A stretch of DNA of 42,224 nt from a virus. Below, one piece after another: positions 18,289-42,069 of the stretch. The DNA lies in IMG/VR virus record IMGVR_UViG_3300025652_000153, positions 1 to 42,224 of that record; one strand, written 5' to 3'. Numbering within the stretch: the stretch's first letter is position 1; every line of letters starts with the position of its first letter. A program made the position numbers and the translations under genes. The notes under the pieces are model-generated. The model did no database searches, was not told where the DNA came from, and saw only the letters and a program-made list of their open reading frames with translations.

Positions 18289-18491
18289 CTCTCACTCCTA
18301 TGGAAAACTTTCTTCCCAGTATATCTTTTGTCAGGGGGTACATCATCACTGTTGAAATGAAACTGAGCAGCATGAAGCCTATCTACATGGCTCTTTGTTT
18401 TATCTTTCTTGTGACCGCAAGACTGACCAGACTGTGCTCCACATGCAGGACATTCTACTTGCTGAACCATTGCTTTAGTTACTGTCACCAT
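18285..18491 (-). CDS. Phage DNA-binding zinc-finger-type small protein
   Basis: 68 residues. CPACGAQSGQSCGHKKD followed by SHVDRLHAAQFH is the pattern CPxCGAxxGxxC...HxxR seen in small phage zinc-binding proteins annotated as DNA-binding phage zinc fingers (recalled). The start at 18491 lies inside the end of the HNH gene (17-base overlap), with GGGAAAG upstream. The stop overlaps the next microgene by ATGA. A second in-frame ATG at residue 8 is an alternative start. Metal binding is well supported; function is inferred. Confidence 0.7.
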   Translation of the reverse strand: MVTVTKAMVQQVECPACGAQSGQSCGHKKDKTKSHVDRLHAAQFHFNSDDVPPDKRYTGKKVFHRSER

Positions 18492-18765
18492 TGAATCTTT
18501 CCCAGTTTCTTTTTGCCCATCCTATTGAGTCAACCCCAGTTAAATCCCACCATGTTCTTTCACTACCAAAACGGTGTAGTTCTGTATGGCAGGTGCGGCA
18601 CAGAGGTACAGCGAAGTTATCTCCCGACTTCATGCCTATTCCACGTTCCCCAACATGTTGTAGGTGGTGCGCCTCTGCACCGCGTCTGCACACTAAGCAA
18701 GGAGATCCTCGCAAAGTATTCAGATACTTCTCATCCCGAATGTTTTTATGTTTCGGAATGAGCAT
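18475..18765 (-). CDS. HNH-type nuclease, DUF968-like
   Basis: 96 residues. The HNH/zinc pattern is clear: CLVC (residues 23-26), AEAHHLQHVG (His33/His34), then DNFAVPLCRTCHTELHRFG with the second Cys pair and the final histidine, followed by the WWDLTGVD...W segment typical of the DUF968 family (recalled). It would cut or nick DNA, and in phages is often found with recombination genes. GGAG precedes the ATG and actually lies within the stop region of the ParB-like gene. Catalytic histidines and cysteines appear intact. Confidence 0.8.
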   Translation of the reverse strand: MLIPKHKNIRDEKYLNTLRGSPCLVCRRGAEAHHLQHVGERGIGMKSGDNFAVPLCRTCHTELHRFGSERTWWDLTGVDSIGWAKRNWERFNGDSN

Positions 18766-22150: not shown

Positions 22151-23929
22151 GTGCAAATCGAACATCAAGTTCGTGGCGAGGCTTATAGATTGGGTGAAGG
22201 TCAACATAAAGTTAAGTGCCCAAGCTGTAGTCACAGCCGCAAAAACAAAACCGATAAGACGCTTTCTCTCCGCATAGAACAAGACAAAACTTTATATCAG
22301 TGTTGGCACTGTGGTCAGCAAGGTATTGTTTCTATGCGAGAGGAGTTACCAGAGATAAAGAGAGAACCAACAATGTCCATTGCAAAAAAAGTTCAAAGAA
22401 AAGAATTAACGGAAAGCTCCCTGGGATGGCTGCAAGAACGAGGGATAAGTAAAGAAACCGCTACTAAAGCAGGGTTAGTTTCAACGCATCATTGGATACA
22501 GGCACTAGGAAAAGAAACTGAATGCATCATGTTTCCGTACACCAACGAGGGTCAAGATTATGCGTACAAGATTAGATCGATAGAAGGTAAAGGCTTCGCA
22601 TGTAGCGGTGCACCTCAAACATTTTTTAACATGCAAGGTGTAGAACGTAACGATGATATGATCATTTGTGAGGGCGAGATGGATGCCCTTGCGTTTATCG
22701 AAACAGGTTACGACAGCGTTGTGTCAGTACCAAATGGTGCGGTCATGAAGGTTGTCGATGGACAGATAGATCCTAAAGAAGATAATAAATTCAAGTTCTT
22801 ATGGGCTGCAAAGAAAAAAATAGATTCGGCTGCTCGTATCATAATCGCCACTGATGCAGACAGTGCAGGTCAGGCAATGGCGGAAGAGATAGCCAGACGT
22901 ATTGGCAAAGATCGATGCTTCAAGATAGAGTTTCCAGAGGGATGCAAGGATGCCAACGATGTGCTTCTCAAGCATGGCAAGGACGGTATCGATAAAGTTG
23001 TAGTTGATTGTAAACCTTGGCCTGTCGCGGGATTGTATGACGCTTCTCATTTCTATGAACAACTTGATGAAATTTACGAGAACGGTATGGGTAGAGGTGA
23101 GAGCACTGGCTACGACAATGTAGATGAATTATATTCTATTGTTGCAGGTCAACTCACAGTAGTCACTGGTCACCCATCTTCTGGTAAGTCAGAGTTCGTA
23201 GATCAGATCATGATGAACATGGCACAAGAGAAGGGTTGGAAGTTTGCAATATGTTCCTTTGAAAACGAGCCAAGGATTCACATAGCAAAGCTAATCAGTA
23301 AGTATATTCGTAAGCCTTTCTTCCAAGGCTCAATGAAAAGACTTAGCCATAAAGAATTATCAGACGGAAAAGAATTTGTTCAATCGCACTTTTCTTTTTT
23401 GTATCAAGCTGATGGGTCAATGTCTTCAATTGATAGCATCATCGAAAGACTAAAGATAGCAGTGCTTAGACATGGTGTAAGAGGGGCTATCATAGACCCA
23501 TACAATTACATTCAAAAGGGAAGGGATGTAAGTGAGACTGAGTGGGTATCAGACATACTGACAAAGCTCAGAGTATTTGCTCAGGCTCATGGTATACACT
23601 TGTGGTTCGTAGCTCATCCGACAAAGATGATGCGAGGAACAGATGGCAAAGTACCTGCACCAAGAGGATATGATATATCTGGTAGTGCAGCATGGTTTGC
23701 TAAGGCTGACGTTGGTCTTACTGTGCATAGACCACACCCATCTGGATCTCCTGTATCAGAGATACACATATGGAAGTGCCGCTTCTCATGGGTTGGTAAG
23801 CAAGGAGAGACTGAGCTTGACTTCGATGTTCCGACATCGACCTACAGGAAGCATGTACCTGATGAGTTCCTTGATGTGCCAAATGATTATAATGATGTAG
23901 ATAATGATGATGATCCCCTCCCATTCTAA
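22151..23929 (+). CDS. Bifunctional primase-helicase (T7 gp4/Twinkle type)
   Basis: 592 residues from GTG 22151, which has GGAGAA at the right distance. A TTG at 22094 is in frame but lacks a ribosome-binding site. Domains: zinc-binding CPSC (23-26) and CWHC (51-54); TOPRIM with CEGEMDA (Glu174) and DAD (Asp235/Asp237); DnaB-type helicase with Walker A GHPSSGKS (340-347) and a Walker B strand GAIIDPYNYI (about 460). It makes primers and unwinds DNA at the fork. The last residues, DNDDDPLPF, mimic an SSB-type acidic tail. No DNA polymerase gene is visible in the window. The gene follows the AT tract and overlaps a microgene at its end. Confidence 0.93.
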   Translation: MQIEHQVRGEAYRLGEGQHKVKCPSCSHSRKNKTDKTLSLRIEQDKTLYQCWHCGQQGIVSMREELPEIKREPTMSIAKKVQRKELTESSLGWLQERGISKETATKAGLVSTHHWIQALGKETECIMFPYTNEGQDYAYKIRSIEGKGFACSGAPQTFFNMQGVERNDDMIICEGEMDALAFIETGYDSVVSVPNGAVMKVVDGQIDPKEDNKFKFLWAAKKKIDSAARIIIATDADSAGQAMAEEIARRIGKDRCFKIEFPEGCKDANDVLLKHGKDGIDKVVVDCKPWPVAGLYDASHFYEQLDEIYENGMGRGESTGYDNVDELYSIVAGQLTVVTGHPSSGKSEFVDQIMMNMAQEKGWKFAICSFENEPRIHIAKLISKYIRKPFFQGSMKRLSHKELSDGKEFVQSHFSFLYQADGSMSSIDSIIERLKIAVLRHGVRGAIIDPYNYIQKGRDVSETEWVSDILTKLRVFAQAHGIHLWFVAHPTKMMRGTDGKVPAPRGYDISGSAAWFAKADVGLTVHRPHPSGSPVSEIHIWKCRFSWVGKQGETELDFDVPTSTYRKHVPDEFLDVPNDYNDVDNDDDPLPF

Positions 23930-24077
23930 AAAGTTTTTGATTGTTCGTGAGGGAGAAGAAGCACCAGTCATTCACGTCTATGTAGACGGTGAAGAGGTGG
24001 CAGTGCTTGAGCTTACGCATCATGAAACACTGAGACTCGTCAGCAACTTGTGTGATAAGATGATCGAAAGTATTTGA
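23904..24077 (+). CDS. 57-residue protein overlapping the helicase end
   Basis: ATG 23904 (two further ATGs follow directly) begins a frame that overlaps the last 26 bases of the primase-helicase and ends in TGA. The product has FLIVREGEEAPVIHVYVDGE followed by VAVLELTHHETLRLVSNLCD, a small alpha-beta protein without a membrane segment. Such overlap implies coupled translation with the helicase. I do not recognise a family. It is the last gene before the intrinsic terminator, so it completes the rightward replication transcript. Confidence 0.6.
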   Translation: MMMIPSHSKKFLIVREGEEAPVIHVYVDGEEVAVLELTHHETLRLVSNLCDKMIESI

Positions 24078-24087
24078 CGTTATGATA

Positions 24088-24181
24088 TCGGAGTGCTAGA
24101 TGTTGCGTCAGGACATCGGTTCAGACATACATCTGGATTTCTCCACTCTGATACTGGGACGCCTTTGGGCGTCCCTTTTTT
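24088..24181 (+). ncRNA. Candidate structured RNA ahead of the terminator
   Basis: No good gene lies between the microgene stop and the terminator, but the interval can fold. GAGTG (24091-24095) pairs with CACTC (24144-24148), and AGATGT (24098-24103) with ACATCT (24129-24134). An alternative GATGT/ACATC hairpin (24099-24103 with 24113-24117) is also possible. The block ends in a strong intrinsic terminator, so it is either a 3' untranslated structure or a small RNA released by processing. Confidence 0.35.
24156..24181 (+). terminator. Rho-independent terminator of the replication transcript
   Basis: GGGACGCC (24156-24163), loop TTTG, GGCGTCCC (24168-24175) and a run of six T (24176-24181). 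A perfect eight-base GC-rich stem with a U-tract, placed between convergent units. The minus-strand transcripts arriving from the other side have no U-tract here. Confidence 0.93.
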
Positions 24182-24182
24182 A

Positions 24183-24464
24183 TTAATACTTTTTATATTT
24201 TACTTTGTCTTTAGAAAACTCTCCACGAGATCCTCTAAAAACAATTTGATCTAATCCACCAGTTGAACCTCTGCGTTCTTGCATTGGTATCATGGATTGA
24301 ACCTTCTCAATAACCAAGTCATCACCATCTTTTAATTTTGCAGAAGGATCAGCGTGATCTTTAATTTTATCAGCGTAAGTATTCATAATTTTCTCAAACT
24401 CCAAAGCAGTTTGTAAGTTACTTACTTCAATGTCTGCTATAATAATTGCTCTTAGTTTAGCCAT
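24183..24464 (-). CDS. Small protein, related in its N-terminus to the upstream neighbour
   Basis: 93 residues from ATG 24464; the longer reading to 24542 lies inside the upstream gene. The start overlaps the stop of that gene by 8 bases, with AAGGA upstream. The N-terminus KLRAIIIADIEVSN resembles KLRVVAVIEIDATV of the gene upstream, followed by a helix in both, which suggests a duplicated beta-strand/helix unit. The C-terminus is basic (SKDKVKYKKY). Function unknown. It is the last gene of the leftward accessory cluster and ends against the terminator. Confidence 0.6.
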   Translation of the reverse strand: MAKLRAIIIADIEVSNLQTALEFEKIMNTYADKIKDHADPSAKLKDGDDLVIEKVQSMIPMQERRGSTGGLDQIVFRGSRGEFSKDKVKYKKY

Positions 24465-24705
24465 TTTTTTTCTTATCCTTTTTAATTCTTTTTCCTGTAT
24501 ACGGATCATATGTTGAGCTTCTAAACGAAATATTATCAACACTTTCTAAAGCAACAGATCCTTGCTTTACTGTACCAACTATAGAGTTAGTAACCCTTTT
24601 ATCATTGCTGAAAAGATCAGTTATAGATCTGAACTCATCCTCAATATGAGATGCATATTTTACCGTGGCATCTATCTCTATTACTGCCACCACCCTTAAC
24701 TTCAT
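24457..24705 (-). CDS. Small protein, tandem relative of the following gene
   Basis: 82 residues; GGAG lies 6 bases before ATG 24705. The N-terminus is a strand (KLRVVAVIEIDATVKYASHI), then a helix (EDEFRSITDLF), then a beta-rich middle and a lysine-rich tail. Its opening strand and spacing match the next gene, so the two are probably paralogues that arose by tandem duplication. The tail KRIKKDKKKNG overlaps the next start. No family recognised. Confidence 0.65.
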   Translation of the reverse strand: MKLRVVAVIEIDATVKYASHIEDEFRSITDLFSNDKRVTNSIVGTVKQGSVALESVDNISFRSSTYDPYTGKRIKKDKKKNG

Positions 24706-24773
24706 TTTTTCTCCATCATTTAATTAATGTAATTGTTATTGCATTAATAATATAATTAGTCAAATAAAAAACA

Positions 24774-24861
24774 CGCAGGGAGAAGAGCAGCGTTCTCAAC
24801 CTGCGCTAGTTTAACGATAGTATAGTGAGGTCAACCTGATGAGAGGTTTCTGTACTATCGT
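24774..24861 (-). other. Two hairpins in the 155-bp intergenic region
   Basis: First, CGCAGGGAGAA (24774-24784) pairs with TTCTC-AA-CCTGCG (24793-24805), a stem of about 11 pairs with a two-base bulge. Second, ACGATAGTA (24814-24822) pairs with TACTATCGT (24853-24861), and the latter includes part of the upstream stop codon. No U-tract follows in the leftward direction. They belong to the post-stop hairpin pattern. The rest of the gap is AT-rich (24720-24770), which may hold a promoter for the next pair of genes. Confidence 0.6.
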
Positions 24862-25067
24862 CAGTGTATGGTCACATTCTCTATGTTTTCGTCATTAAGC
24901 TGCTCAAGAACATGACCAATGCTGACCGCAATATGAAACCAGTTTTCTCCCATACCGTATACTTCCATAATATTTACGATAAGATTTATAACTTGTTCGC
25001 CAGTTGCCTTGGGTGGTAGCTGACTAACAAGATCAATGAGAGCTTCTTGATTTAATTCTTTGTGCAT
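24861..25067 (-). CDS. Small acidic helical protein, unknown
   Basis: 68 residues, predicted mainly helical: EALIDLVSQLPPKATGEQVI, then an amphipathic helix and ENWFHIAVSIGHVLEQL. It has no cysteine-based or catalytic motif. The ribosome-binding site before ATG 25067 is weak. The gene stands alone between structured gaps (hairpin at 25116 upstream, hairpins at 24774-24861 downstream). A regulator or host-interaction protein would fit the size, but nothing in the sequence proves this. Confidence 0.5.
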   Translation of the reverse strand: MHKELNQEALIDLVSQLPPKATGEQVINLIVNIMEVYGMGENWFHIAVSIGHVLEQLNDENIENVTIH

Positions 25068-25115
25068 TTTATTTTTTATGTTACCCTATAATTGTTTTTC
25101 ATTTTGCTCCAACTA

Positions 25116-25133
25116 GGGCGGCTCTTGCCGCCC
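25116..25133 (-). other. Post-stop hairpin GGGCGGC-TCTT-GCCGCCC
   Basis: A perfect seven-base GC stem starts 6 bases downstream of the stop of the gene at 25139. In that gene's sense direction the stem is not followed by U, so it is not a classical terminator. In the plus direction it is followed by CTCTTTT, but no plus-strand gene precedes it. Confidence 0.7.
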
Positions 25134-25138
25134 CTCTT

Positions 25139-25891
25139 TTAGAAGTCCACAAGTTCCTTCACAACGGTATCCTTGATCCTTCTTTTAAGCAAGCTCTCTG
25201 CGCGAGAGAACTCTTGATGCGTAGCAAGTATAGTATCGTCATACGTTTCGTACTTGAATACCCAACCTTTTTCTATGGTGGCATTATCACGGTAAACTTT
25301 AAGAACTTCACATTGGTAAGCAACGACACCATCCTTGACTAGTCTACCAAGGTTTTTCTTAGTGGCACTCATGATAAATCTTTCGCCATCACCTGCTTTG
25401 ACAGTGGCAATACCCTCTGCGTATACAGTCTTGCCCCAACCAAGAGGTATATCGACATTGAAGTTGTTGCCGTATCTACCTGTTTGTCTCTCAGCATAAG
25501 GCTTACTGCCTCTCTCGCACCTGACCTCCCAACCTCTAGATGGAAATGCTTCATTGAGTACACTGGTTGCCCATACAGTATTGCTTTCGATGGCTTTCTT
25601 GATAACACTTTTATCTTCTACATACTTAGCTTTACTTCTGTGACCCTTGATCAACTCCAAAAAACTATGAGCATATAGAACTACATTCCTGATGTTGTCT
25701 CTGCCTATGCTGTCGCTCATTAGCTTGAAAACTGTGGGCGCTCCATCATAATCAAAGTTTTTCCAGTTGTATGAACTGGCATCTCGACAAAACTCTTTGA
25801 TCTCATCACCAGAAAAACCATACGTCTTGAAGAACCTAATCAGTTCTTCCCTTGCGTGTTCTATTACTTTTAGATTGTTCTTGTATTCCAT
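25139..25891 (-). CDS. 250-residue phage protein of unknown function
   Basis: ATG 25891 is chosen (EYKNNLKVIEHARE); an in-frame GTG three codons earlier has less support. The N-terminal third is helical (EHAREELIRFFKTYGF, GDEIKEFCRDASSYNW). The C-terminal part is beta-rich, with basic/aromatic segments such as SRGWEVRCERGSKPYAERQ and FNVDIPLGWGKTVYAEGIA. That segment might be a nucleic-acid or ligand-binding beta domain. I do not recognise the family. The gene begins within the end of a short overlapping gene that carries a dyad copy, so its expression may be controlled there. Confidence 0.6.
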   Translation of the reverse strand: MEYKNNLKVIEHAREELIRFFKTYGFSGDEIKEFCRDASSYNWKNFDYDGAPTVFKLMSDSIGRDNIRNVVLYAHSFLELIKGHRSKAKYVEDKSVIKKAIESNTVWATSVLNEAFPSRGWEVRCERGSKPYAERQTGRYGNNFNVDIPLGWGKTVYAEGIATVKAGDGERFIMSATKKNLGRLVKDGVVAYQCEVLKVYRDNATIEKGWVFKYETYDDTILATHQEFSRAESLLKRRIKDTVVKELVDF

Positions 25892-26027
25892 TTTTCTCAC
25901 TCTCTGTTTTTAGTTCTATTGAACTTTTTTCCCAAGGTGCTTTTGATAACGACACCTTCATATTATTATTGGCAAGCTTACGTTTGTAACCTAACCATTC
26001 TTTTTCGACTGTTGTGAAACGCTTCAT
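25836..26027 (-). CDS. 63-residue basic protein overlapping two neighbours
   Basis: Starts at ATG 26027, overlapping the upstream stop (ATGA), and runs 56 bases into the start of the 250-residue gene. The first half (FTTVEKEWLGYKRKLANNN) looks like normal coding sequence. The second half is lysine/glutamate-rich and reads through the dyad at 25911-25924, where it encodes SSIEL. Either it is a real gene that hosts a regulatory site, or the true product is shorter in a related phage. Moderate confidence only. Confidence 0.45.
   Translation of the reverse strand: MKRFTTVEKEWLGYKRKLANNNMKVSLSKAPWEKSSIELKTESEKNGIQEQSKSNRTRKGRTD
25911..25924 (+). promoter_or_regulatory. Dispersed dyad AGTTC-N4-GAACT, copy 3
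   Basis: TTTTTAGTTCTATTGAACTTTTTT; loop TATT, perfect arms. It lies 20 bases upstream (in the leftward sense) of ATG 25891, within the short overlapping gene. Confidence 0.6.
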
Positions 26028-26212
26028 ATCTTTACACCATTCACTCTTAGCTTTGAGACAAACGACTTTAGATCTTCACGCGCATGAAACAAATCTTGTT
26101 GTACATTAGGACGAGCATCGAACCGATACAGTTCTTCTTCTAGTCTATTCACTTGCTGCTTTAAGAAACGATACTCAAACTTTTGGGCAGGGCTTAGTGC
26201 TTCATCTCCCAT
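26024..26212 (-). CDS. 62-residue coiled-coil protein
   Basis: The sequence KFEYRFLKQQVNRLEEELYR is a strong heptad-type coiled coil, followed by a second helix (QQDLFHAREDLKSFVSKL). It is soluble with no motif. The start overlaps the upstream stop (TAATG at 26210-26214) and its stop overlaps the next start (ATGA), so it sits in a chain of coupled small genes. It may dimerise; role unknown. Confidence 0.6.
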   Translation of the reverse strand: MGDEALSPAQKFEYRFLKQQVNRLEEELYRFDARPNVQQDLFHAREDLKSFVSKLRVNGVKI

Positions 26213-26424
26213 TATGGTCTCACCTTTGGCTTGACCAGTTTGTTAGATGCAACCTCAGTACCCTTGCAATATATCGTCACTTCATCATGTTGGTTTTCCA
26301 TCATGAAGTACATGGCTTCTTTGCTATAACTACAATCGTCATAGCTTTTAAATAGTATGTTGTGTGTTACCTGTTCGCCTTGAACAAAGTAACTTAGTAC
26401 CATGAACGTAAAATATTTAATCAT
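26212..26424 (-). CDS. Small exported protein (signal-peptide-like N-terminus)
   Basis: 70 residues from ATG 26424, which has GGGGAG at good spacing and overlaps the upstream stop (TGATG). The N-terminus MIKYFTFMVLSYFVQGEQ looks like a short signal peptide. The mature part has two cysteines (SYDDCSYSKEAM and VTIYCKGTE) that could form a disulfide. The layout, signal then Y-x-x-C...V-x-x-x-C, is shared with the 53-residue gene at 33001-33162, which may point to a small family of periplasmic phage proteins. Function unknown. Confidence 0.6.
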   Translation of the reverse strand: MIKYFTFMVLSYFVQGEQVTHNILFKSYDDCSYSKEAMYFMMENQHDEVTIYCKGTEVASNKLVKPKVRP

Positions 26425-26768
26425 CAAACTACTCCCCTTAAAGAACTTGCATTTAATTTTTTTATCTTATTATTTTTACGATGTTCTTTACCTATGTTTA
26501 GTTTTCTCATCCAGTTCTTACATGTTTGAGCACTGTTAAGACCAAGCACCCTATAACAATCATTGATCTTCCAGTTATGTTCGTCAAGAACTCTGATAAT
26601 ATAGTGTCTTGCTACCTCATTTATAATTGAGGGAAGATCAAGGTCATCATTAATTCTGCGATTGAGAATTGTACATTCATTGGATCTATTCCTGTACTTG
26701 ATTGCAATGTCCATCATCTCTTCAATAGCTTCTGGCATTGCATCGTTAATAGATATATCGATATTCAT
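26424..26768 (-). CDS. Fis/NtrC-type helix-turn-helix protein
   Basis: 114 residues. The centre ARHYIIRVLDEHNWKINDCY followed by RVLGLNSAQTCKNWMRKLNI (about residues 53-92) is the Fis-like HTH of NtrC-type activators: a long helix, then W-x-(I/V)-x-x-(A/C)-x-x-L-G-(L/I)-x-x-x-T...W-(M/I)-x-K-L. There is no AAA+ or sigma-54 interaction domain, so it resembles a stand-alone Fis-like DNA-binding protein with a basic C-terminal tail (KNNKIKKLNASSLRG). It is a candidate to bind the dispersed dyads or to bend DNA. The ATG is followed by a short acidic N-terminal region. Confidence 0.75.
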   Translation of the reverse strand: MNIDISINDAMPEAIEEMMDIAIKYRNRSNECTILNRRINDDLDLPSIINEVARHYIIRVLDEHNWKINDCYRVLGLNSAQTCKNWMRKLNIGKEHRKNNKIKKLNASSLRGVV

Positions 26769-26804
26769 ATTGCACTCACTTTCTTTTGTTATTAGATTGA
26801 TTGA

Positions 26805-26825
26805 GGGGCAGTCCTCCGCTGCCCC
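26805..26825 (-). other. Post-stop hairpin GGGGCAG-N7-CTGCCCC
   Basis: Seven perfect pairs, beginning 6 bases after the stop of the cysteine-rich gene at 26832 (leftward). The following leftward sequence is AT-rich but lacks a U-tract. It lies in the gap before the Fis-like gene. Confidence 0.65.
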
Positions 26826-26831
26826 ACGACT

Positions 26832-27038
26832 TCACTCTGGTAAGCAATCAAAGCACCATATCTCACCGTCATCATGAGGTGGGTGACCCCATTCGATAAC
26901 ATCTTGATGGCACTTATCACACTCGACACACTGACAATCAGCGCATATAAAAAACCCACTCTCCGCAGGTAGTCGGTTGACGAACTTACCGCTGCCCCAC
27001 GCAACGCTATCGCCACAGTCCTTGCACTCCTCAGTCAC
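26832..27038 (-). CDS. Cysteine-rich double zinc-knuckle protein
   Basis: 68 residues, GTG start at 27038. Repeated C-x2-C motifs (CKDC, CADC, CVECDKC, and CFDC near the end) give eight or nine cysteines plus His, enough for two zinc sites, arranged like a LIM/zinc-ribbon tandem. The start lies 8 bases inside the upstream microgene, and GGAG is located just after the start region, so initiation probably depends on coupling. It may bind nucleic acid or a host protein. Zinc binding is seen in the sequence; function unknown. Confidence 0.65.
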   Translation of the reverse strand: MTEECKDCGDSVAWGSGKFVNRLPAESGFFICADCQCVECDKCHQDVIEWGHPPHDDGEIWCFDCLPE

Positions 27039-27180
27039 TAGAAGCTTCTATTTTTTTGTCTACTGGAATTAAAATTTTGACGTGGATAAATCCACCAGAC
27101 ATTGAGCTAATGCTGTATGCATAGGGGCAGGTCTTTACCCATTGTAAAAACCCTTCCATGTTTTCAATCTGAAAATTCAT
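27031..27180 (-). CDS. 49-residue small protein
   Basis: AAAGGAAAC precedes ATG 27180. The product reads like ordinary alpha-beta coding sequence: MEGFLQWVKTCPYAYSISS, then SGGFIHVKILIPVDKK. It overlaps the next gene's GTG start by 8 bases. A single amphipathic helix plus a beta hairpin would fit. It is too short for a family call. Supported by the ribosome-binding site, the overlap and balanced composition. Confidence 0.55.
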   Translation of the reverse strand: MNFQIENMEGFLQWVKTCPYAYSISSMSGGFIHVKILIPVDKKIEASSD

Positions 27181-27194
27181 TTTGTTTCCTTTAT

Positions 27195-27272
27195 TTAAAT
27201 GTTCCACCATCCTAATGCTGCACCCACTGACCAGAGGATGCAGATTGTTATTGTTGCCGCACTATAAAACAT
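27195..27272 (-). CDS. 25-residue single-pass membrane microprotein (candidate)
   Basis: ATG 27272, 8 bases after the stop of the VWA gene, with AGGTG upstream. The product is one hydrophobic helix (AATITICILWSVGAALGWW) with almost no extramembrane part. The ribosome-binding site is in the 3' arm of a CACCTAC/GTAGGTG hairpin that also contains the VWA stop codon, so a terminating ribosome would open it. Small and without homology evidence, so tentative. Confidence 0.4.
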   Translation of the reverse strand: MFYSAATITICILWSVGAALGWWNI

Positions 27273-27277
27273 GAGGT

Positions 27278-27299
27278 CACCTACGTTGTTAGGTAGGTG
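27278..27299 (-). promoter_or_regulatory. Hairpin covering the VWA stop codon and the next ribosome-binding site
   Basis: CACCTAC (27278-27284) and GTAGGTG (27293-27299) form a perfect seven-base stem with an eight-base loop. In the leftward mRNA the 3' arm contains the AGGTG used by the 25-codon gene, and the stop codon (complement of 27281-27283) lies in the stem. This suggests translational coupling. Confidence 0.5.
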
Positions 27300-28408
27300 G
27301 TGTCTCCCCAAGGTGCTTCCTTAGACCCTAGATATGATGAGACCCACAGTGTCGGGTAGTGTGGTGGGTTCTCTGGGTAATCCCAGATCTCCAGATCACT
27401 GAGGTAAACCATGTTGTCTACTTGCAACTGGTGCTCTTCAATGTAATCGAACACTGGTCTCACTCTCGTGCCACCACGACCATTGATCTCAATCTTTTCG
27501 ATCTCCTCACCTTGCTCGTAACGTCTGACCGTTTGTATCTGAGCATCACAAGTGATCACCGTGATTGATCGTGGCTTGATGTCCTCACTGATAGCGTTGA
27601 TCTCACCAAGGAAAAACTTTAGCTCTTTCCTTGTGACAGATCCACTTGTATCGATGCCGACAACCACATCACCTGCACCAATCTTTTCGATAGAGGGCGA
27701 GATGATACCAGTCATGTGATACATCTTCTTCTGAGGCTTGCGAAAGCTGTAGTCATCTGGCTGATCACCGCCAACAAATCTACGCATCACGTCACGCCAG
27801 TCAACTTGACTGCGCTCCATCTCCTCAATCAAAGACTTGATAGCAGAGGGTAGCTTGCCGATTGCCTTAGCTCCAGATGCAGCCATCATTACCTTGGTAT
27901 CAATGTCTGCTTCCATCTGCTTGACCTCAGCCTCTGACATGTCACCGCCATCATCCTTCTTGGCATCCTTGACCTCGCCCATAGCAGCGCCTTGAGCATA
28001 CTTTTTCTTGGCATCATCAGGTAGTCGATCAAAGATAGCCTCTGCACTTAGACCCTTGTACTCTGGATCAATCAGCCCACCCTCTGGGAGAGTAAAGCCG
28101 TTGTCCACAAGAACTTGGTTGATTGCAAAGTCAGTCGCAATATTCCAAAGCTCAGGGTCACGCACACCACGTCTGAGGTGATGCTTGAATACAATGTGCA
28201 AGACCTCATGAGCCATGACACCTACGGTCTCTTCTTGATCCATTGTATCAACGAATGATGGTGACCATAGGATAGACTTGCCATCAGTACACATAGTAGG
28301 GATATCATCCTCTGACTTGACGTTGATTGACAGGCACATTGACCCAAAGAAGGGATGCTTGACAACTAGGCGCGTAACAGCGCGAGACACTTTCATTTGT
28401 GCGTCCAT
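27281..28408 (-). CDS. VWA-domain protein with N-terminal zincin motif (DUF2201 type), partner of the MoxR ATPase
   Basis: 375 residues. The N-terminal putative metallopeptidase domain has VMAHEVLHIVFKHH (His67, Glu68, His71, with further His76/77). The C-terminal VWA-like domain has a full MIDAS: DTSGS (253-257), GGT (312-314) and SDLE (Asp338). The arrangement corresponds to the DUF2201 N- and C-terminal families (recalled). Such proteins are usually encoded with a MoxR AAA+ ATPase, which is exactly the gene upstream. The pair likely remodels or activates a target protein. AGGAG precedes ATG 28408. A dyad copy and a hairpin lie in the gap upstream. Substrate unknown. Confidence 0.88.
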   Translation of the reverse strand: MDAQMKVSRAVTRLVVKHPFFGSMCLSINVKSEDDIPTMCTDGKSILWSPSFVDTMDQEETVGVMAHEVLHIVFKHHLRRGVRDPELWNIATDFAINQVLVDNGFTLPEGGLIDPEYKGLSAEAIFDRLPDDAKKKYAQGAAMGEVKDAKKDDGGDMSEAEVKQMEADIDTKVMMAASGAKAIGKLPSAIKSLIEEMERSQVDWRDVMRRFVGGDQPDDYSFRKPQKKMYHMTGIISPSIEKIGAGDVVVGIDTSGSVTRKELKFFLGEINAISEDIKPRSITVITCDAQIQTVRRYEQGEEIEKIEINGRGGTRVRPVFDYIEEHQLQVDNMVYLSDLEIWDYPENPPHYPTLWVSSYLGSKEAPWGDTTYLTT

Positions 28409-28424
28409 AATTTTCTCCTAAAAA

Positions 28425-28438
28425 AGTTCAATAGAACT
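28425..28438 (-). promoter_or_regulatory. Dispersed dyad AGTTC-N4-GAACT, copy 4
   Basis: AAAAAAGTTCAATAGAACTAAAAG, 16 bases upstream of the VWA gene's start. Immediately downstream in the leftward sense is T6AGGAG, that is, the ribosome-binding site. Confidence 0.6.
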
Positions 28439-28453
28439 AAAAGCTGAAATGGT

Positions 28454-28483
28454 AAGCAGGCATATTGACGTGTATGCCTGCTT
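28454..28483 (-). other. Post-stop hairpin AAGCAGGCATA / TATGCCTGCTT
   Basis: Eleven perfect base pairs with an eight-base loop (28465-28472), beginning 9 bases after the stop of the MoxR ATPase gene. It is the longest stem of the series. No U-tract follows in the leftward direction; the dyad follows 15 bases later. Confidence 0.75.
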
Positions 28484-28491
28484 TACTGTGA

Positions 28492-29505
28492 TTAAAGGAT
28501 AAGGTTCTTGCCTACTGACATGATCCATTCTCTGATCGATGCATCAGCCTTGAGGTCTCGCTTGAGATCCTCAGTGCGGTTCATTGCATCCTTGATCACA
28601 AAGGCAGCAAACTCCTGCTGAGGTAGCCGCTTGAGATATGTCACGATGTTCTTAGCGTTCTTGCCAGTCATCTTGGCTGACAGTGCAGCGCATACAGCGT
28701 ACTGAACATCAGGTGCATCAGGAATATCTGCACTTGCAGGATTAGCAATCAGCTTATCGATATCAGGTACAATATCGTACACCTTGAGGAAGCCATTAAA
28801 CTCAGCCGTAGCCGCACGTCCAACCTGACCTGCGATAGCTTCAATCTGATTGACTGGATCAAGAGACCATTTGAGGATAGTAGAGACACGCTCCCAACCT
28901 CTAGGAGATGCACAAGCATTCTCATCACGGTTGAACTTGTGCAACCACTCAGGTCTAAAGCGCAGGAATGCAGGAATGCATTCATGCATTCGCTTCTTGT
29001 AGCAGTAGGCAATAGCATCCTCTAGGTCAGCCTCAATCTCTAGGAACATCAAGCGATCTTTGAGGTGAGAAGGCATGTTGTTTGTACCTGCCCGATCTGA
29101 CATGCGGTTACCTGCCGCAATGATATGCCAACCCTCTGGAAGGTGATGCTTGCCTATGCGTCTCTCATTGACCAACTGTGCGGCAATGTTTTGGTTAGAC
29201 ACTGGGGCTTGTGGTAGCTCATCAAGGAATAAGATACCCTTGCCATCTCGTGGCATCCAGTCAGGACATCTGCGATCCATCGTCTCGCCATCAGCATTGG
29301 GTAGCACCCAACCTGCAAGCTCACCTGCATCATACTGAGCCAGTGATAATATCTGGCAACCAATACCTAGCTCCTTGGCGATCTCATGGACAATGGAAGT
29401 CTTGCCAATCCCTGCACCTGATACAAGGTACGGCACACAATCTAATGTGTCAGTCTTGACTGTGATAGCGGCCTTAGCAATGGCCTTTGCTTGTGATAAT
29501 TTCAT
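28492..29505 (-). CDS. MoxR-family AAA+ ATPase
   Basis: 337 residues. Walker A SGAGIGKTS (29-37), Walker B ILFLDE (91-96), sensor-1 AAGNR (Asn133), and an arginine-finger region LKDRLMF near 150; the spacing and the LAQYDAGELAGW segment are typical of MoxR proteins. The C-terminal half is helical. These ATPases work as chaperone-like rings with VWA proteins; the VWA partner is encoded directly downstream. Starts by overlap with the preceding stop (TAATG). In phages the target of such pairs is not established as far as I know; assembly of a virion component or host takeover are both possible. Confidence 0.9.
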   Translation of the reverse strand: MKLSQAKAIAKAAITVKTDTLDCVPYLVSGAGIGKTSIVHEIAKELGIGCQILSLAQYDAGELAGWVLPNADGETMDRRCPDWMPRDGKGILFLDELPQAPVSNQNIAAQLVNERRIGKHHLPEGWHIIAAGNRMSDRAGTNNMPSHLKDRLMFLEIEADLEDAIAYCYKKRMHECIPAFLRFRPEWLHKFNRDENACASPRGWERVSTILKWSLDPVNQIEAIAGQVGRAATAEFNGFLKVYDIVPDIDKLIANPASADIPDAPDVQYAVCAALSAKMTGKNAKNIVTYLKRLPQQEFAAFVIKDAMNRTEDLKRDLKADASIREWIMSVGKNLIL

Positions 29506-29756
29506 TAGGATTTTCCCTCTAAGGTTGAAAGCAGTTCATCTGCTTTTCTGATTGCGATTACAAAATTTAGACATTCGATTTTTACAGAGCATGTCTCTAC
29601 TCTATCCTGTTTGGAGCGTAGACCGCTCTCTCTTACTTCTTTTACAGCGTTGTCAAAATCTTCATTAGCTTTAACAAGCATCTGGTTTAACTCTTGCACA
29701 CTGAAATTTTTGTATGCTTCCACAATGTTTGTGGAGTAAGTGTCTTCTAGTTCCAT
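29505..29756 (-). CDS. Small helical protein ahead of the MoxR gene
   Basis: 83 residues, almost wholly helical: VQELNQMLVKANEDFDNAVK, then a second long helix (CSVKIECLNFVIAIRKADELL). GAGAGGTG lies before ATG 29756. Its stop overlaps the MoxR ATG (TAATG), so it is expressed with the ATPase/VWA pair and may be a small accessory factor of that system. A dyad copy lies about 20 bases upstream. No family recognised. Confidence 0.6.
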   Translation of the reverse strand: MELEDTYSTNIVEAYKNFSVQELNQMLVKANEDFDNAVKEVRESGLRSKQDRVETCSVKIECLNFVIAIRKADELLSTLEGKS

Positions 29757-29774
29757 TGTTCACCTCTCTGAAAA

Positions 29775-29788
29775 AGTTCTATTGCACT
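29775..29788 (-). promoter_or_regulatory. Dispersed dyad AGTTC-N4-GCACT, copy 5
   Basis: AAAAAGTTCTATTGCACTTAAAAA, right arm variant GCACT. Located between the hairpin at 29797-29814 and the ribosome-binding site of the 83-residue gene. Confidence 0.6.
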
Positions 29789-29796
29789 TAAAAATT

Positions 29797-29814
29797 CAGC
29801 CCCCGAAAGGGCTG
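29797..29814 (-). other. Post-stop hairpin CAGCCC...GGGCTG
   Basis: Six GC-rich pairs starting 4 bases after the stop of the 36-codon gene. In the leftward RNA the loop is UUUCGG. Sequence-related to the hairpins at 30668-30683 and 31143-31158. Confidence 0.7.
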
Positions 29815-29817
29815 AGA

Positions 29818-29928
29818 TTAAAATGCAAGTACTACTATGAGTATGCCCACTGTTAAGGCAGTGAAGGCGATGCCAGAAGCAACGCCCTCAATAAAGATGA
29901 TGCGCTTTTCGCGCTTGCTCAGTCTCAT
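29818..29928 (-). CDS. 36-residue single-pass membrane microprotein
   Basis: ATG 29928 overlaps the stop of the upstream gene (ATGA). The product has a basic N-terminus (RLSKREKRI) and one long hydrophobic segment (SGIAFTALTVGILIVVLAF), so its topology would be N-in/C-out by the positive-inside rule. It is co-translated with the 228-residue gene. Small membrane proteins of this kind can alter the host envelope or exclude other phages, but there is no direct evidence here. Confidence 0.6.
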   Translation of the reverse strand: MRLSKREKRIIFIEGVASGIAFTALTVGILIVVLAF

Positions 29929-30611
29929 GCTGCTTCAGTGAACTCAGCAACTGTGCTATCAACTGCTACATTTTCCTCAGCAGCCTCAGCCTCAGCAGCC
30001 TTAGCAGCCTCTGAGTTGCGGTATGCTGTACGAGCAGCTTTAAGCTCACGCATAGCGTTCTCGAACTCGTCAAGCTCTTCATCAGTCAGGCCATCTTTGA
30101 ATACATCACCTTGTACTCTGTTGCCCTTGTCATCTTTTTTGCTTGAGAATTTACCAACAACCTGCTCCGCAAGACGTTGCGCTTTTGACTTGTCAGGCTC
30201 ACCCTTAACAGCCTTAGCAAGCTTGTTCTCGCTGTCGATCTCTAGCGTTGCTAGATCCTTGACGATGGCATCAGGTGTGTACTGAGTTGGTATCTCAGCA
30301 AAATGATCCTTGAGCAATCGAACAGCCCCTACAGAATTTTCAAGGTAGCGTTTGGCAGTAGCCTCTTTGACACCTGCCTGTTCAACCAATGCGCTCTTGA
30401 GGATCTTAGAGTTGGCGCGTGGCAAGTTGCCCTTGACTAGTTTGACCTGAGCAATGGCAGCGATAACCTCGCCATAGGCTGACATCTTTGCGCTGTTAGC
30501 AGCAACATTATTGTCTTTGTTTACACCCTTGAGAGAGGCGATCTCTTGCTCTGCGCTGTAAACGTTGTTGATTGCAGTATCGGAAACGGTAAAAGTTTTT
30601 GAATTTGTCAT
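29925..30611 (-). CDS. 228-residue early protein of unknown function
   Basis: ATG 30611 is chosen; the ATG at 30620 sits too close to its AAGG. The first part is helical with NVYSAEQEIASLKGVN. A middle segment SALVEQAGVKEATAKRYLEN (about residues 74-93) resembles a small helix-turn-helix. The C-terminal half is strongly charged, then alanine/glutamate-rich. The long mRNA leader carries three to four hairpins, so expression may be controlled at RNA level. It might bind DNA, but the HTH is weak evidence. The stop overlaps the membrane microgene. Confidence 0.6.
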   Translation of the reverse strand: MTNSKTFTVSDTAINNVYSAEQEIASLKGVNKDNNVAANSAKMSAYGEVIAAIAQVKLVKGNLPRANSKILKSALVEQAGVKEATAKRYLENSVGAVRLLKDHFAEIPTQYTPDAIVKDLATLEIDSENKLAKAVKGEPDKSKAQRLAEQVVGKFSSKKDDKGNRVQGDVFKDGLTDEELDEFENAMRELKAARTAYRNSEAAKAAEAEAAEENVAVDSTVAEFTEAA

Positions 30612-30632
30612 CTGGTTCATCCTTTTTGGCTG

Positions 30633-30683
30633 ACAAGTTTCTTGTTATCGGCATGATGCCGCGACTACAGCCCCGAAGGGCTG
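30633..30683 (-). promoter_or_regulatory. Hairpin-rich leader upstream of the 228-residue gene
   Basis: Three consecutive inverted repeats: CAGCCCCGAAGGGCTG (30668-30683; leftward RNA loop UUCG closed by C-G), CGGCATGATGCCG (30649-30661) and ACAAG-TTT-CTTGT (30633-30645). The first is also the post-stop hairpin of the 65-residue gene. The CGGCATGATGC core recurs at about 42142 before the last, truncated gene. Confidence 0.55.
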
Positions 30684-30694
30684 CACTCATGGTC

Positions 30695-30892
30695 TCATGA
30701 TTTATTTCCTTTGTTTCTTATTCCAAACTCTTCTAGATAAGCTTCTGTAAAACAGTCTAAACATTCATTTGTTTTAAGCATGTCAGTCACGTCATCAGTG
30801 GACATATATGACAGGCAAGCTCTCAATAAACTCTCGTGTGTTTCATAAGTTTTTTCTATTAAATCCATTGCGAAATCTCTTGAATTTTCCAT
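30695..30892 (-). CDS. 65-residue acidic helical protein
   Basis: ATG 30892 overlaps the upstream stop (TAATG) with GGGAG at ideal spacing. The sequence is helical and acidic, with two cysteines in NECLDCFTEAYLEEFGI that are too few for a zinc ribbon. A short basic end (RNKGNKS) follows. It is probably a soluble early protein; no family recognised. A post-stop hairpin follows 11 bases downstream. Confidence 0.55.
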   Translation of the reverse strand: MENSRDFAMDLIEKTYETHESLLRACLSYMSTDDVTDMLKTNECLDCFTEAYLEEFGIRNKGNKS

Positions 30893-31116
30893 TATTTTAC
30901 TCCCATGATATAACGTGTGTCATCTACTCTATACTCAGCCCTGAGACCGCCTAAGCAATCCTCAACATAAATGATGTCTACAACTTCATTATTTAAAAAT
31001 GGTGACCTTGCTGCCTTACGAGCCATCAGTCTGGCTTTTTGTTTTGCAAGGTATTCTGTTTTTGCGTAGTCATATGCGACTGCACCACGATGGTTTATTT
31101 TGATTTTAAATGTCAT
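30892..31116 (-). CDS. 74-residue basic alpha-beta protein
   Basis: GAGGAG precedes ATG 31116. Layout: strand (TFKIKINHRGAVAYDYAK), helix rich in Lys/Arg/Ala (EYLAKQKARLMARKAAR), then strands (EVVDIIYVEDCLGGLRAEYR and VDDTRYIMGVK). The strand-helix-strand pattern with a basic helix could suit nucleic-acid binding. Translationally coupled to the next gene by TAATG. No family recognised. Confidence 0.55.
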   Translation of the reverse strand: MTFKIKINHRGAVAYDYAKTEYLAKQKARLMARKAARSPFLNNEVVDIIYVEDCLGGLRAEYRVDDTRYIMGVK

Positions 31117-31142
31117 AAGACGCTCCTCATAAAGTTAATGAT

Positions 31143-31158
31143 GCAGCCCGTAGGCTGC
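31143..31158 (-). other. Post-stop hairpin GCAGCC-CGTA-GGCTGC
   Basis: Perfect six-base GC stem; leftward RNA loop UACG closed by C-G, a UNCG-type tetraloop. Begins 10 bases after the stop of the 104-residue gene. Flanking TTAA/TTAA extend the pairing weakly. Confidence 0.75.
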
Positions 31159-31168
31159 ACTGTTAATC

Positions 31169-31483
31169 TTATGCTGCTATTGGTGCAGGGAAACGCTTGC
31201 CTGTTTGCTTTACCTTGCCAGTAATAAAGGCAATGTGAGAAATGCAATCAGGATCAAATTCCTCATGAGAATACATGTGATCCAATGTTACATGTAAAAA
31301 GTCATCAGTTCGCAGTACATAGCGATCACCATCAAAATCAGTGTAGGTGTATGTCCAAGCGGTTCTAACACCGCCTGATCTGATTTTAAGAACTGCTTCC
31401 CTGCCAGTATCGCCAACTATTTTAGTTGCAGTTTCAATTCCAAACATTGAGATTGAAGTGATTTTAGTATTGATTGATGCCAT
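31169..31483 (-). CDS. 104-residue beta-rich early protein
   Basis: A strong GGAGG precedes ATG 31483. The product is beta-rich, with VRTAWTYTYTDFDGDRYVLR and DFLHVTLDHMYSHEEFDPD, and ends in a basic stretch (GKVKQTGKRFPAPIAA). It has no known catalytic motif. It is the first gene of the leftward accessory cluster and sits about 390 bases downstream of a candidate promoter, after a structured leader, so it is probably expressed early and strongly. Function unknown. Confidence 0.55.
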   Translation of the reverse strand: MASINTKITSISMFGIETATKIVGDTGREAVLKIRSGGVRTAWTYTYTDFDGDRYVLRTDDFLHVTLDHMYSHEEFDPDCISHIAFITGKVKQTGKRFPAPIAA

Positions 31484-31729
31484 TGTGGTTTACCTCCGTT
31501 AAATGAAACCATGACAACGGCAACCAGTAAGCTGCCGCTCTCGAAAATTTCACTTTGATCTTTTATGACAATAAAGGCGATCAACCTTGCCTAGTCTTTT
31601 TCACCCACTCTAGGCTGATAGATGGGTTCAACATGTCTTGGTCTATATCCGAAAAACAGCGGTTGAGATTTTTAACATATTCTATATTTCACTTTATTTT
31701 TTTACACATGCATTGTCGTTCAGTCCTAC

Positions 31730-31879
31730 TTGCATCTCTCTTTTACAGACCGTCCAGTATATCTGGTGGCGTGTGCCTCGCAGCGAGGTGCTTTGGTGAG
31801 CCTATTGGCAGGGCTTGTGAGCCATATGTTCGTGGGATTGTGAGGATCAAAGCCTCGTTGCTTCCCTGCGTCTGTCATC
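31730..31879 (-). ncRNA. GC-rich structured leader or small RNA (candidate)
   Basis: The gap 31484-31977 holds no convincing gene. Within it, about 150 bases are clearly more GC-rich than the surroundings and rich in inverted repeats: GTGCCTCG/CGAGGTGC (31773-31780 with 31784-31791, loop CAG), GCAGGG/CCCTGC (31808-31813 with 31864-31869), and GAGG/CCTC (31842-31845 with 31853-31856). It would be transcribed leftward from the promoter at 31880-31908. It does not fit a tRNA. Confidence 0.4.
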
Positions 31880-31908
31880 CTTAGACACTATCTAGCAAAC
31901 AATGTAAA
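31880..31908 (-). promoter_or_regulatory. Candidate leftward promoter of the accessory cluster
   Basis: On the minus strand TTTACA (complement of 31903-31908), 17-base spacer, TCTAAG (complement of 31880-31885). Immediately upstream is a helically phased 10-bp A/T repeat that could act as an UP element. It would drive the 24183-31483 cluster. Confidence 0.5.
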
Positions 31909-31910
31909 CC

Positions 31911-31950
31911 CTTATATTCCCTTTTATTCTCTTTTATTCTCTTATTATCA
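31911..31950. repeat. Four 10-bp A/T-rich units in helical phase
   Basis: CTTATATTCC, CTTTTATTCT, CTTTTATTCT, CTTATTATCA in direct succession. The two central units are identical. The 10-bp period places A-tracts on one face of the helix, next to the candidate -35 box, as in UP elements or curved DNA. Confidence 0.6.
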
Positions 31951-32013
31951 GTATTAGCCAATAAAATAAGGGATATCGTGACAAAAAAAAATTTAGATGT
32001 TAGAGTAAAAAAA

Positions 32014-32027
32014 AGTTCTATTGCACT
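32014..32027 (+). promoter_or_regulatory. Dispersed dyad AGTTC-N4-GCACT, copy 6
   Basis: AAAAAGTTCTATTGCACTTTTT. Loop and right arm are the same as the copy at 29775. It lies about 100 bases upstream of the terminase small-subunit start, in the control region. Confidence 0.6.
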
Positions 32028-32127
32028 TTTTCTGGATATCGCCTGCCCCAGATTAGGTGAAAATATTAGGGTGATTCGTTTTGCCCAAAATCCCGAAGGC
32101 AAGCGCAGCGTTAGAAGGATGGTTATA

Positions 32128-32634
32128 ATGAGTAATAAGAAACCTAAGTTAAGAGTAGTAGGTAGTAATAAGAAACATACAGGCACTAGGAAAAAGAGTG
32201 CCACCAGTAAAAGAACAGGGTTAACAGATAAACAAGAAGCATTCGCTCTTGCAGTGTTTGAGGGTAATAACTTTAGTGAAAGTTATAGGATAGCATATGA
32301 TGCTTCAAACATGAGTGCAGCATGTATCCATACAGAGGCTTGTCTACTAGTACAGAACCCAAAGGTATCCGAAAGGTTAGAGGTCTTAAACGCTGATAGA
32401 GTTAAGCAGCAGCGCATGTTGAGCCTCTCTCGAAGTGACTTTGTTTTGAAACAGCTAACAGATGAAGCAACCAATCAAGACAACTCAGATGGTGCAAGAG
32501 TAAGAGCACTTGAGCTTCTAGGAAAATCGGTAGCACTGTTTACGGACAAGGTAGAGACTGAAGATAAGACAGAGCGAGACCCTGATACAATCAAAGCTGA
32601 GTTAGAGGCTAGACTGAACAGGCTGTTGGGATAG
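32128..32634 (+). CDS. terS: Terminase small subunit
   Basis: 168 residues from ATG 32128, with AAGGATGG about 8 bases upstream; an open frame to 31978 exists but crosses the control region with a dyad. The N-terminal tail is basic (SNKKPKLRVVGSNKKHTGTR). It is followed by LTDKQEAFALAVFEGNNFSE and SYRIAYDASNMSAACI, the helix-turn-helix region typical of phage small terminases, then the K-x-x-E-R-L repeat. The C-terminal half is helical and acidic. It recognises the packaging site. It is separated from the large subunit by 1.8 kb with a convergent operon, which is unusual. A dyad overlaps its stop codon. Confidence 0.85.
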   Translation: MSNKKPKLRVVGSNKKHTGTRKKSATSKRTGLTDKQEAFALAVFEGNNFSESYRIAYDASNMSAACIHTEACLLVQNPKVSERLEVLNADRVKQQRMLSLSRSDFVLKQLTDEATNQDNSDGARVRALELLGKSVALFTDKVETEDKTERDPDTIKAELEARLNRLLG

Positions 32635-32646
32635 TTCGATTGAACT
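32633..32646 (+). promoter_or_regulatory. Dispersed dyad AGTTC-N4-GAACT, copy 7
   Basis: AGTTCGATTGAACTTTT, overlapping the terminase small-subunit TAG stop. Loop GATT; arms perfect. Begins the 208-bp gap between convergent genes. Confidence 0.6.
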
Positions 32647-32842: not shown

Positions 32843-33004
32843 TTACTTAGACTGTGCTCGCCTGTTATATTTCTTTTTATAGCGAGCTTTTTTTATTATT
32901 GGTGCATTGGTTCTAACTATATTGGAACTACTGCTGATTATTAGGATAGTGCCGTCATCATCTAGTGCCGCCCACTTGTATTTGTTCAATTGAACTAATT
33001 TCAA
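32843..33004 (-). CDS. 53-residue protein with basic C-terminus
   Basis: A frame from TTG 33004, whose start overlaps the previous stop (TTGA). It continues through KWAALDDDGTILIISSSSNI to the very basic KKARYKKKYNRRAQSK. The GTILIISSSSNIV part is a regular beta pattern and the composition looks coding. The dyad at 32983-32996 lies inside and encodes VQLN. A second TTG at residue 6 is an alternative start. The tail may bind nucleic acid. Last gene of a leftward operon of small proteins. Confidence 0.55.
   Translation of the reverse strand: MKLVQLNKYKWAALDDDGTILIISSSSNIVRTNAPIIKKARYKKKYNRRAQSK
32856..32894 (+). terminator. Possible rho-independent terminator for the terminase small-subunit transcript
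   Basis: GCTCGC (32856-32861), 20-base loop, GCGAGC (32882-32887) followed by seven T. The long loop weakens it, and the sequence also encodes the basic tail of the minus-strand microgene, so the pairing could be accidental. Confidence 0.4.
32983..32996 (+). promoter_or_regulatory. Dispersed dyad TGTTC-N4-GAACT, copy 8
   Basis: TTTGTTCAATTGAACTAATTT. The 12-base core GTTCAATTGAAC is a perfect palindrome. It overlaps the N-terminus of the 53-residue minus-strand gene. Confidence 0.55.
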
Positions 33005-42056: not shown

Positions 42057-42069
42057 GTTCAATTGAACT
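42056..42069 (+). promoter_or_regulatory. Dispersed dyad AGTTC-N4-GAACT, copy 9
   Basis: AAGTTCAATTGAACTTTT, a perfect palindrome overlapping the last base of the capsid stop codon and located 5 bases before the terminator stem. Confidence 0.65.

Follow-up and report, generated by a model that had tools for sequence, protein, structure and literature searches.

Hairpins at stop codons in the predicted early transcript of an uncultured phage: covarying RNA structures and candidate RNase III-type processing or 3'-end signals

Introduction

The division of an early transcript by RNA processing signals is textbook knowledge for bacteriophage T7 and, to our knowledge, is seldom documented elsewhere; T7 also has late RNase III sites. 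Hairpins between the genes of bacterial operons can also stabilise mRNA, as in the Rhodobacter puf operon and the REP elements. Here we describe a series of GC-rich hairpins at the stop codons of a minus-strand gene block in the IMG/VR virus record IMGVR_UViG_3300025652_000153. The whole record of 42,224 bases, referred to below as the window, probably derives from a marine virus of bacteria and belongs to an uncultured group. An earlier note on this DNA had proposed that the hairpins are processing or RNA-stabilising signals dividing one long early transcript, and this proposal was followed up by comparison with related genomes and with the T7 sites.

An mRNA gains stability from a single cut that leaves a folded 3' end, and loses it through a double cut (PMC6993053). 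The T7 site R1.1, a 60-nucleotide (nt) RNA from the early region, has an internal loop of 4/5 nt, and is cut by RNase III from the alphaproteobacterium Sinorhizobium meliloti, but this enzyme requires longer double-stranded RNA (dsRNA) than that from Escherichia coli (PMC6121014).

Results

Stop-codon hairpins exceed chance on one strand

The plus strand of the window carries structural and packaging genes (portal- and terminase-like), and the minus strand a compact gene block running from 31,483 down to 24,861 and ending in a U-run terminator. From the gene order, we infer that this block is the "early" transcript. The window was scanned for perfect stems with a minimum of 6 pairs, 4 or more of them G-C, and a hairpin was counted when it lay in a spacer of at least 25 nt and started no more than 12 nt from the stop codon. 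On the minus strand, such a hairpin was present in 7 of the 11 spacers, compared with an expectation of 0.14 (500 dinucleotide shuffles, maximum of 2), while none of the 9 plus-strand spacers had one. The seventh of these hairpins, at 24156-24175, lies outside the range of the earlier note and should be discounted, being the mirror of a plus-strand terminator. With the hairpins at 27278-27299 and 24812-24863 added, all 8 minus-strand spacers of at least 50 nt between 31.5 and 24.8 kb exhibited a hairpin touching or adjoining the stop codon. Overlapping genes had no hairpin, as had been noticed earlier.

The main source for comparison was a set of 68 IMG/VR loci, each carrying a cobS relative of 56-100% identity (individual loci are given below by L numbers). 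In 17 relatives' records, with genes called by a purpose-made caller, a hairpin lay close behind the stop codon in 37 of the 163 spacers on the cobS strand, where 2.7 were expected; on the opposite strand it did so in 3 of 118, where 1.3 were expected. As the genomes are related, these counts are not independent. Two-part hairpins, in which an internal loop separates an upper from a lower stem, numbered 35 in 133 cobS-strand spacers (1.2 expected) and 1 on the non-cobS strand (0.4 expected).

A U run followed just 2 of the 37 cobS-strand hairpins. Its absence is meaningful because U-run terminators do occur in these genomes, at operon ends. The claim that no hairpin is followed by a U run thus held in general, with the exceptions of 24774-24805, which is followed by TTTTTT, and 29797, which is followed by ATTTTTAAG. 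The latter run was terminator-like by the scan, but in the fold it pairs with the stop-codon stretch as the 3' arm of the lower stem. On these grounds ordinary terminators were ruled out, except at 24774.

The GC-rich stems previously placed just past the stop codons were recovered at 31143, 30668, 29797, 28454, 26805 and 25116 (Table 1), with upper stems starting 2 to 11 nt past the stop, but not at 24774, which is the terminator. The gene ending at 24861 is indeed followed by a hairpin, although the one adjoining its stop codon is the longer structure at 24812-24863 rather than that at 24774. Likewise, "after the stop" describes the upper stems well, whereas the stop codon itself lies inside the 5' arm at 31143, 30668, 29797 and 24812. 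The original list held upper stems alone and lacked the hairpin across the cobT stop codon at 27278-27299.

Compensatory changes point to selection on the sense RNA

The processing idea had been staked on compensatory changes in relatives, and two-sided base changes of this kind were present at four sites, 31143, 24812, 28454 and 29797, above both slid and shuffled controls. At 31143 (21 distinct relative sequences), 7 pairs showed two-sided change, amounting to 38 cells, whereas a slid partner gave at most 9 and no shuffle reached 38. At 24812 (11 sequences) there were 9 such pairs, and their 33 cells compare with no more than 10 for the slid versions; the outer stem begins at or before the stop codon. 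The site at 29797 (13 sequences) gave 5 pairs and 11 cells against at most 2, with 97.4% of cells paired, and that at 28454 (7 sequences) gave 4 pairs and 7 cells against at most 1, with 100% of cells paired and an invariant loop CACGUCAA. A point to be set against all these counts is that the structures were derived from the same sequences in which changes were counted, which favours them over their slid versions.

In the paired columns of the four alignments, 79 cells were G-U and 13 were A-C. This excess indicates that selection saw the minus-strand (sense) RNA and not the DNA. A covariance model built from the 31143 set (R1 model) also favoured the sense strand, with scores of 63.2 bits for 31126-31174, a site within the training set, versus 32.8 bits. 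For the four covarying sites it is almost certain, judging from these patterns of change, that the hairpins are selected RNA structures. That they merely mirror plus-strand signals is true of 24156-24175, and was ruled out for the others by the sense-strand model scores and the wobble pairs.

No Rfam family matched the region 23900-32200 even at an E value of 5, which ruled out a known RNA family at the elements. Two strict element patterns found no exact match in the genomes of 84,980 prokaryote species, ruling out a host-derived repeat of such form; distant host forms would be missed because both patterns are strict. Among named isolates there was no convincing element match (best E value of 5), and the R1 model gave nothing convincing on T7, CRP-7 (first 12 kb) or HTVC027P (about 37 kb). 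The sole Rfam match of the window was the Mu-gpT-DE RNA (66.1 bits) at 42132-42184 on the plus strand, just downstream of the gene at 41151-42056.

Two-part elements with a buried stop codon

In the 21 sequences of the 31143 element, a lower stem of about 10 pairs is joined to an upper stem of 8 or 9 pairs, often with a UNCG-like loop. The 2x2 internal loop is mismatched in all 21, although its letters vary (CA/CA, AA/CA, CU/UA, GU/UG and others). The stop codon is in the 5' arm of the lower stem, and in frame in 20 of the 21, though the copies follow different genes. Where this codon changes from UGA to UAA, the opposite arm changes in step, from UCA to UUA.

The element at 30650-30700 was found by an R1 model built without it (28.4 bits, E value of 6.6e-4) and folds into 18 pairs. 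The GCAGCC/GGCTGC likeness of 31143 and 30668, which had been pointed out earlier, is therefore real homology. The model built from the 31143 set also finds new copies in further contigs. There are two to three copies of the element per phage. Relatives at the 29797 site form a helix of 17 to 23 pairs. When the lower stem is included, the totals are about 18 to 20 pairs at 31143, 30668 and 29797, with 18 or 19 at the first two and about 18 at the third. The hairpin at 24812 also has 18 or 19 pairs.

Table 1. Hairpins, terminators, anchor genes and palindromes. Positions are those of the window unless a locus is named.
Feature	Position	Strand	Description
Hairpin after gene 31169-31483	31126-31174 (upper part 31142-31159)	-	Lower stem CAUAAGAUUAA/UUAACUUUAUG with stop UAA in its 5' arm; 2x2 mismatched internal loop CA/CA; upper stem GUGCAGCC/GGCUGCAU; UACG loop
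Second copy of 31143 element, after gene 30695-30892	30650-30700 (upper part 30668-30683)	-	Upper stem UGCAGCCC-UUCG-GGGCUGUA; internal loops; lower stem CAUGA/UCAUG with stop UGA in 5' arm
Hairpin after small open reading frame (ORF) 29818-29927	29782-29828 (upper part 29796-29815)	-	Lower stem UUGCAUUU/AAGUGCAA plus AA/UU; internal loop; upper stem UCAGCCC..GGGGCUGA; 3' arm includes left half of palindrome at 29776
Hairpin after gene 24861-25067	24812-24863	-	11-pair outer stem UGACGAUAGUA/UACUAUCGUUA from stop codon; short inner stem; conserved 3' internal loop around GCCUC (window: ACCUC)
Hairpin between cobS and cobT	28452-28486 (scan: 28454-28483)	-	11 perfect pairs AAGCAGGCAUA/UAUGCCUGCUU, loop CACGUCAA; 13 pairs in all
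Hairpin across cobT stop codon	27278-27299	-	CACCUAC-CUAACAAC-GUAGGUG; UAG in 3' arm; kept in L002, L003, L010, L025, L027
Hairpin after gene 26832-27038	26805-26825	-	GGGGCAG-CGGAGGA-CUGCCCC
Hairpin after gene 25139-25900	25116-25133	-	GGGCGGC-AAGA-GCCGCCC; stem kept, loop changed in L011, L027, L030
Intrinsic terminator of early operon	24766-24805	-	GCGCAGG..CCCUGCGU stem, then UUUUUU
Plus-strand terminator downstream of primase/helicase gene	24156-24175	+	GGGACGCC-UUUG-GGCGUCCC-UUUUUU; minus-strand "hairpin" there is its mirror
cobS/MoxR-type AAA ATPase gene	28492-29505	-	PF00004, phrog_1297; anchor used to find relatives
cobT/VWA-like gene, metallopeptidase-like domain	27281-28408	-	PF13203 and PF09967
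Same stop-codon hairpin	L111 8563-8596 and 8810-8850	+	Model search
Same stop-codon hairpin	L112 5230-5263 and 5480-5513	-	Model search
Palindrome WAAGTTCNNNNGAACTTTT	3912-3923, 17155-17166, 25913-25924, 28426-28437, 29776-29787, 32015-32026, 32634-32645, 32984-32995, 42057-42068	both	

Simpler hairpins and the operon-end terminator

The hairpins at 26805, 25116 and 27278 have 7 or 8 pairs each. The conservation of 27278-27299 is weak evidence because the hairpin is mostly coding sequence, and 26805 is uninformative on covariation either way because it is identical in L002, L003, L005 and L011. No compensatory pair was found at 25116 when L011, L027 and L030 were compared. At the cobS-cobT junction, more distant relatives have other hairpins. 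The terminator at 24774, with its U run, is in the same place in L003, L011, L012, L014, L016, L027, L030 and L036.

A small conserved two-part hairpin, AUACUUUGCGAGG..CCUUGCUUAGUGU, was also observed at about 18690-18720 on the minus strand, possibly inside ORF 18475-18765; its stem letters vary, and it is present in G001, G003, G004 and G005 as well.

Hairpins at cassette borders

When the junctions of gene 31169 (g31169) and cobT were compared with L005, L025, L068, L002 and L010, different genes were found to follow the same hairpin. The homologue of g30892 has a hairpin where it closes a block (L003, L035) and none where it continues into the gene that follows (window, L002, L010). Between L003 and the window this gene is 100% identical over the matched stretch, with a hairpin in the former and a gene overlap in the latter. 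Since the homologue differs by context, the hairpins belong to the ends of blocks and not to particular genes. The 31143-type element was also present in L113 (part of a 55.9-kb record) as two copies behind stop codons, at 7011-7044 and 7262-7295 on the minus strand, with the same CA/CA loop. Neither the terminase nor the CobS of the window was found in the L113 record, a weak negative as no positive control was run. The hairpins of L111 and L112 (Table 1) are likewise copies from a phage of this kind.

A dispersed palindrome

The palindrome AAGTTCNNNNGAACTT (WAAGTTCNNNNGAACTTTT) is dispersed in spacers throughout these genomes on both strands, often 0 to 3 nt past stop codons or about 14 to 21 nt before start codons. 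In the 17 genomes there were 74 exact copies in 54 kb of spacers versus 65 in 612 kb of genes. An RNA stem was considered for AAGTTCNNNNGAACTT and rejected: there were 69 perfect copies and 28 one-arm variants, while the doubly compensated form GTGC/GCAC was found 0 times. These counts make a DNA-binding site more likely. The palindrome is reminiscent of the stoperators of mycobacteriophages, and a small putatively early protein at 26424-26768 (minus strand), with a weak helix-turn-helix match (HTH_28, E value of 0.04), is a candidate binder (GTTCAATAGAAC). At L049 5457-5504, L051 6534-6581 and L063 6632-6679 (plus strand), a 20-pair hairpin takes its 5' lower arm from the GAAC half of the palindrome, and the hairpins at 29797 and in L036 take their 3' arm from the AAGTTC half. 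At each of these places, palindrome and hairpin are mutually exclusive folds.

Relationships of the window

A megablast search of the phage collection revealed no close named phage. By terminase, the nearest were Pelagibacter phages, phage DSL-LC04 and phage 023Pt_psg01 (52-59%). The 29925 protein had no relatives among named isolates, and no phage-encoded RNase III was seen among the window proteins scanned, which were part of the gene set. On the plus strand, 8669-17155 is a single ORF of 2828 residues, of which the C-terminal 900 match large phage proteins with no function assigned.

Discussion

We consider it fairly probable, from the arrangement and conservation of the hairpins, that they serve the early transcript as signals for RNase III-type processing or as 3'-end signals. 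One minus-strand transcript would start near 31.5-31.9 kb and end at the terminator at 24.77 kb. In each spacer between blocks the RNA would form a double-stranded hairpin, either beginning at the stop codon of the preceding block or enclosing it, and host RNase III, a double-strand-specific endonuclease, would most likely cut these helices to give shorter mRNAs. In the released mRNAs the coding sequence would end directly in a folded 3' end, possibly with a stabilising effect, as in the T7 early region. Early transcription as a single unit, cutting by RNase III and stabilisation of the products are all steps that we infer. What the earlier note had proposed in this respect is consistent with the selected RNA structure, the restriction to the cobS strand and the T7-like build at three sites, but does not apply to 24774, a plain terminator.

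Several observations speak against processing, or against its extending to every site. The loop of R1.1 is asymmetric, whereas that of 31143 is mostly a symmetric 2x2 loop; 24812 does have an asymmetric loop, but a different layout. Stems of 7 or 8 pairs (26805, 25116) are short for RNase III, and the alphaproteobacterial enzyme is reported to require longer dsRNA than that of E. coli, so that not every element need be a substrate. Processing at 26805 and 25116 is a guess because these hairpins are short and offer no informative variation. Furthermore, stable UNCG-type loops fit simple protection of 3' ends equally well.

That protection could be the whole function, in which case the hairpins would only block 3'-to-5' exonucleases and the ends themselves would come from Rho-dependent termination or other nucleases. 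The position at stop codons, the GC-rich upper stems, the UNCG-type loops and the lack of a U run are all in keeping with this, and the short stems at 26805 and 25116 suit it better than they suit processing sites. We nevertheless regard it as rather unlikely, as it leaves unexplained the conserved 2x2 loop and long lower stem at 31143, 29797 and 30668, and also the restriction to one strand.

A translational role, by which the buried stop codon would insulate neighbouring genes, block re-initiation or coupling, or pause the terminating ribosome, seems improbable. It would account for the stop codon being in the 5' arm in nearly all 31143-type and all 24812-type sequences, with its change compensated, and for the lack of hairpins between overlapping and probably coupled genes. 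However, the stem starts 5 to 8 nt past the stop at 28454, 26805 and 25116, the Shine-Dalgarno sites of the next genes are outside the stems, and a ribosome reaching the stop codon should in any case unwind the lower stem.

There is very little to recommend transcription signals acting on the polymerase, either U-less terminators or antitermination sites such as the put RNA of HK022. The hairpins are folded RNA in the early transcript, and 29797 is terminator-like by sequence, but the same genomes have real U-run terminators at their operon ends, eight successive terminators would silence the operon, and the hairpins vary between junctions, unlike a polymerase-binding site. Elements acting as DNA, such as short palindromic repeats or recombination linkers at cassette borders, are disfavoured and hardly credible: although close relatives show four different genes behind the g31169 hairpin and several behind cobT, and the element also occurs in a phage in which neither a terminase of the window's type nor CobS was detected, the sense-strand wobble bias of 79 to 13, the strand bias of occurrence and compensatory changes giving many sequences rather than a uniform repeat all argue otherwise, and use as a linker could be a by-product.

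If the hairpins are processing or 3'-end signals, as we favour, they suggest why cassettes swap at these borders without upsetting expression. A bolder version, which we think unlikely, is that processing is gated by translation. With the stop codon lying in the lower stem, a ribosome that terminates there has to unwind the helix, and the site would be complete only while no ribosome is finishing the upstream gene. In this way cutting would sense the translation of each block, and hairpin-ended cassettes could be exchangeable as self-contained expression units. Such gated cassettes, if real, could be exchanged even between lineages with no detectable common terminase, as with L113.

More broadly, these data suggest that, for a widespread group of uncultured phages, sequence is enough to reveal RNA punctuation, its RNA structure being demonstrated by compensatory evolution. 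The analysis yields RNAs for testing, a covariance model and a practical route to RNA punctuation in other phages. In a small literature search, a stop codon that lies within a helix and is compensated when it changes appeared, tentatively, to be undescribed.

Among known systems, intrinsic terminators share the GC-rich hairpin directly behind the stop codon and differ in the U run that nearly all the hairpins described here lack. Like the stabilising hairpins of the Rhodobacter puf operon and the REP elements, those of the window lie between the genes of an operon and could shield the upstream RNA from 3'-to-5' decay, but they differ in having an internal loop, a stop codon in the stem and one copy per spacer. 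They are also not dispersed repeats of the REP type, given two to three copies per phage and no pattern match in prokaryote genomes.

For the comparison with T7, its RNase III sites, at what we take to be the positions given by Dunn and Studier, were folded by the same procedure as a yardstick. In the folded sites a lower stem led through an internal loop into an upper stem, with 18 to 26 pairs in the folded stretch. In the phage described here, by contrast, the stop codon is in the 5' arm and is compensated, several junctions have simpler hairpins, and the elements are almost solely on one strand. The likeness is to R0.3, R0.5, R1, R1.1 and R1.3, irregular hairpins of about 20 pairs that lie in the gene spacers of one early transcript without a U run. 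A size of about 20 pairs was found at 31143, 30668, 24812 and 29797 and not at 26805, 25116, 27278 or 28454, and the irregular T7-type build was found at 31126-31174, 30650-30700 and 29782-29828, and was clearer still in the relatives.

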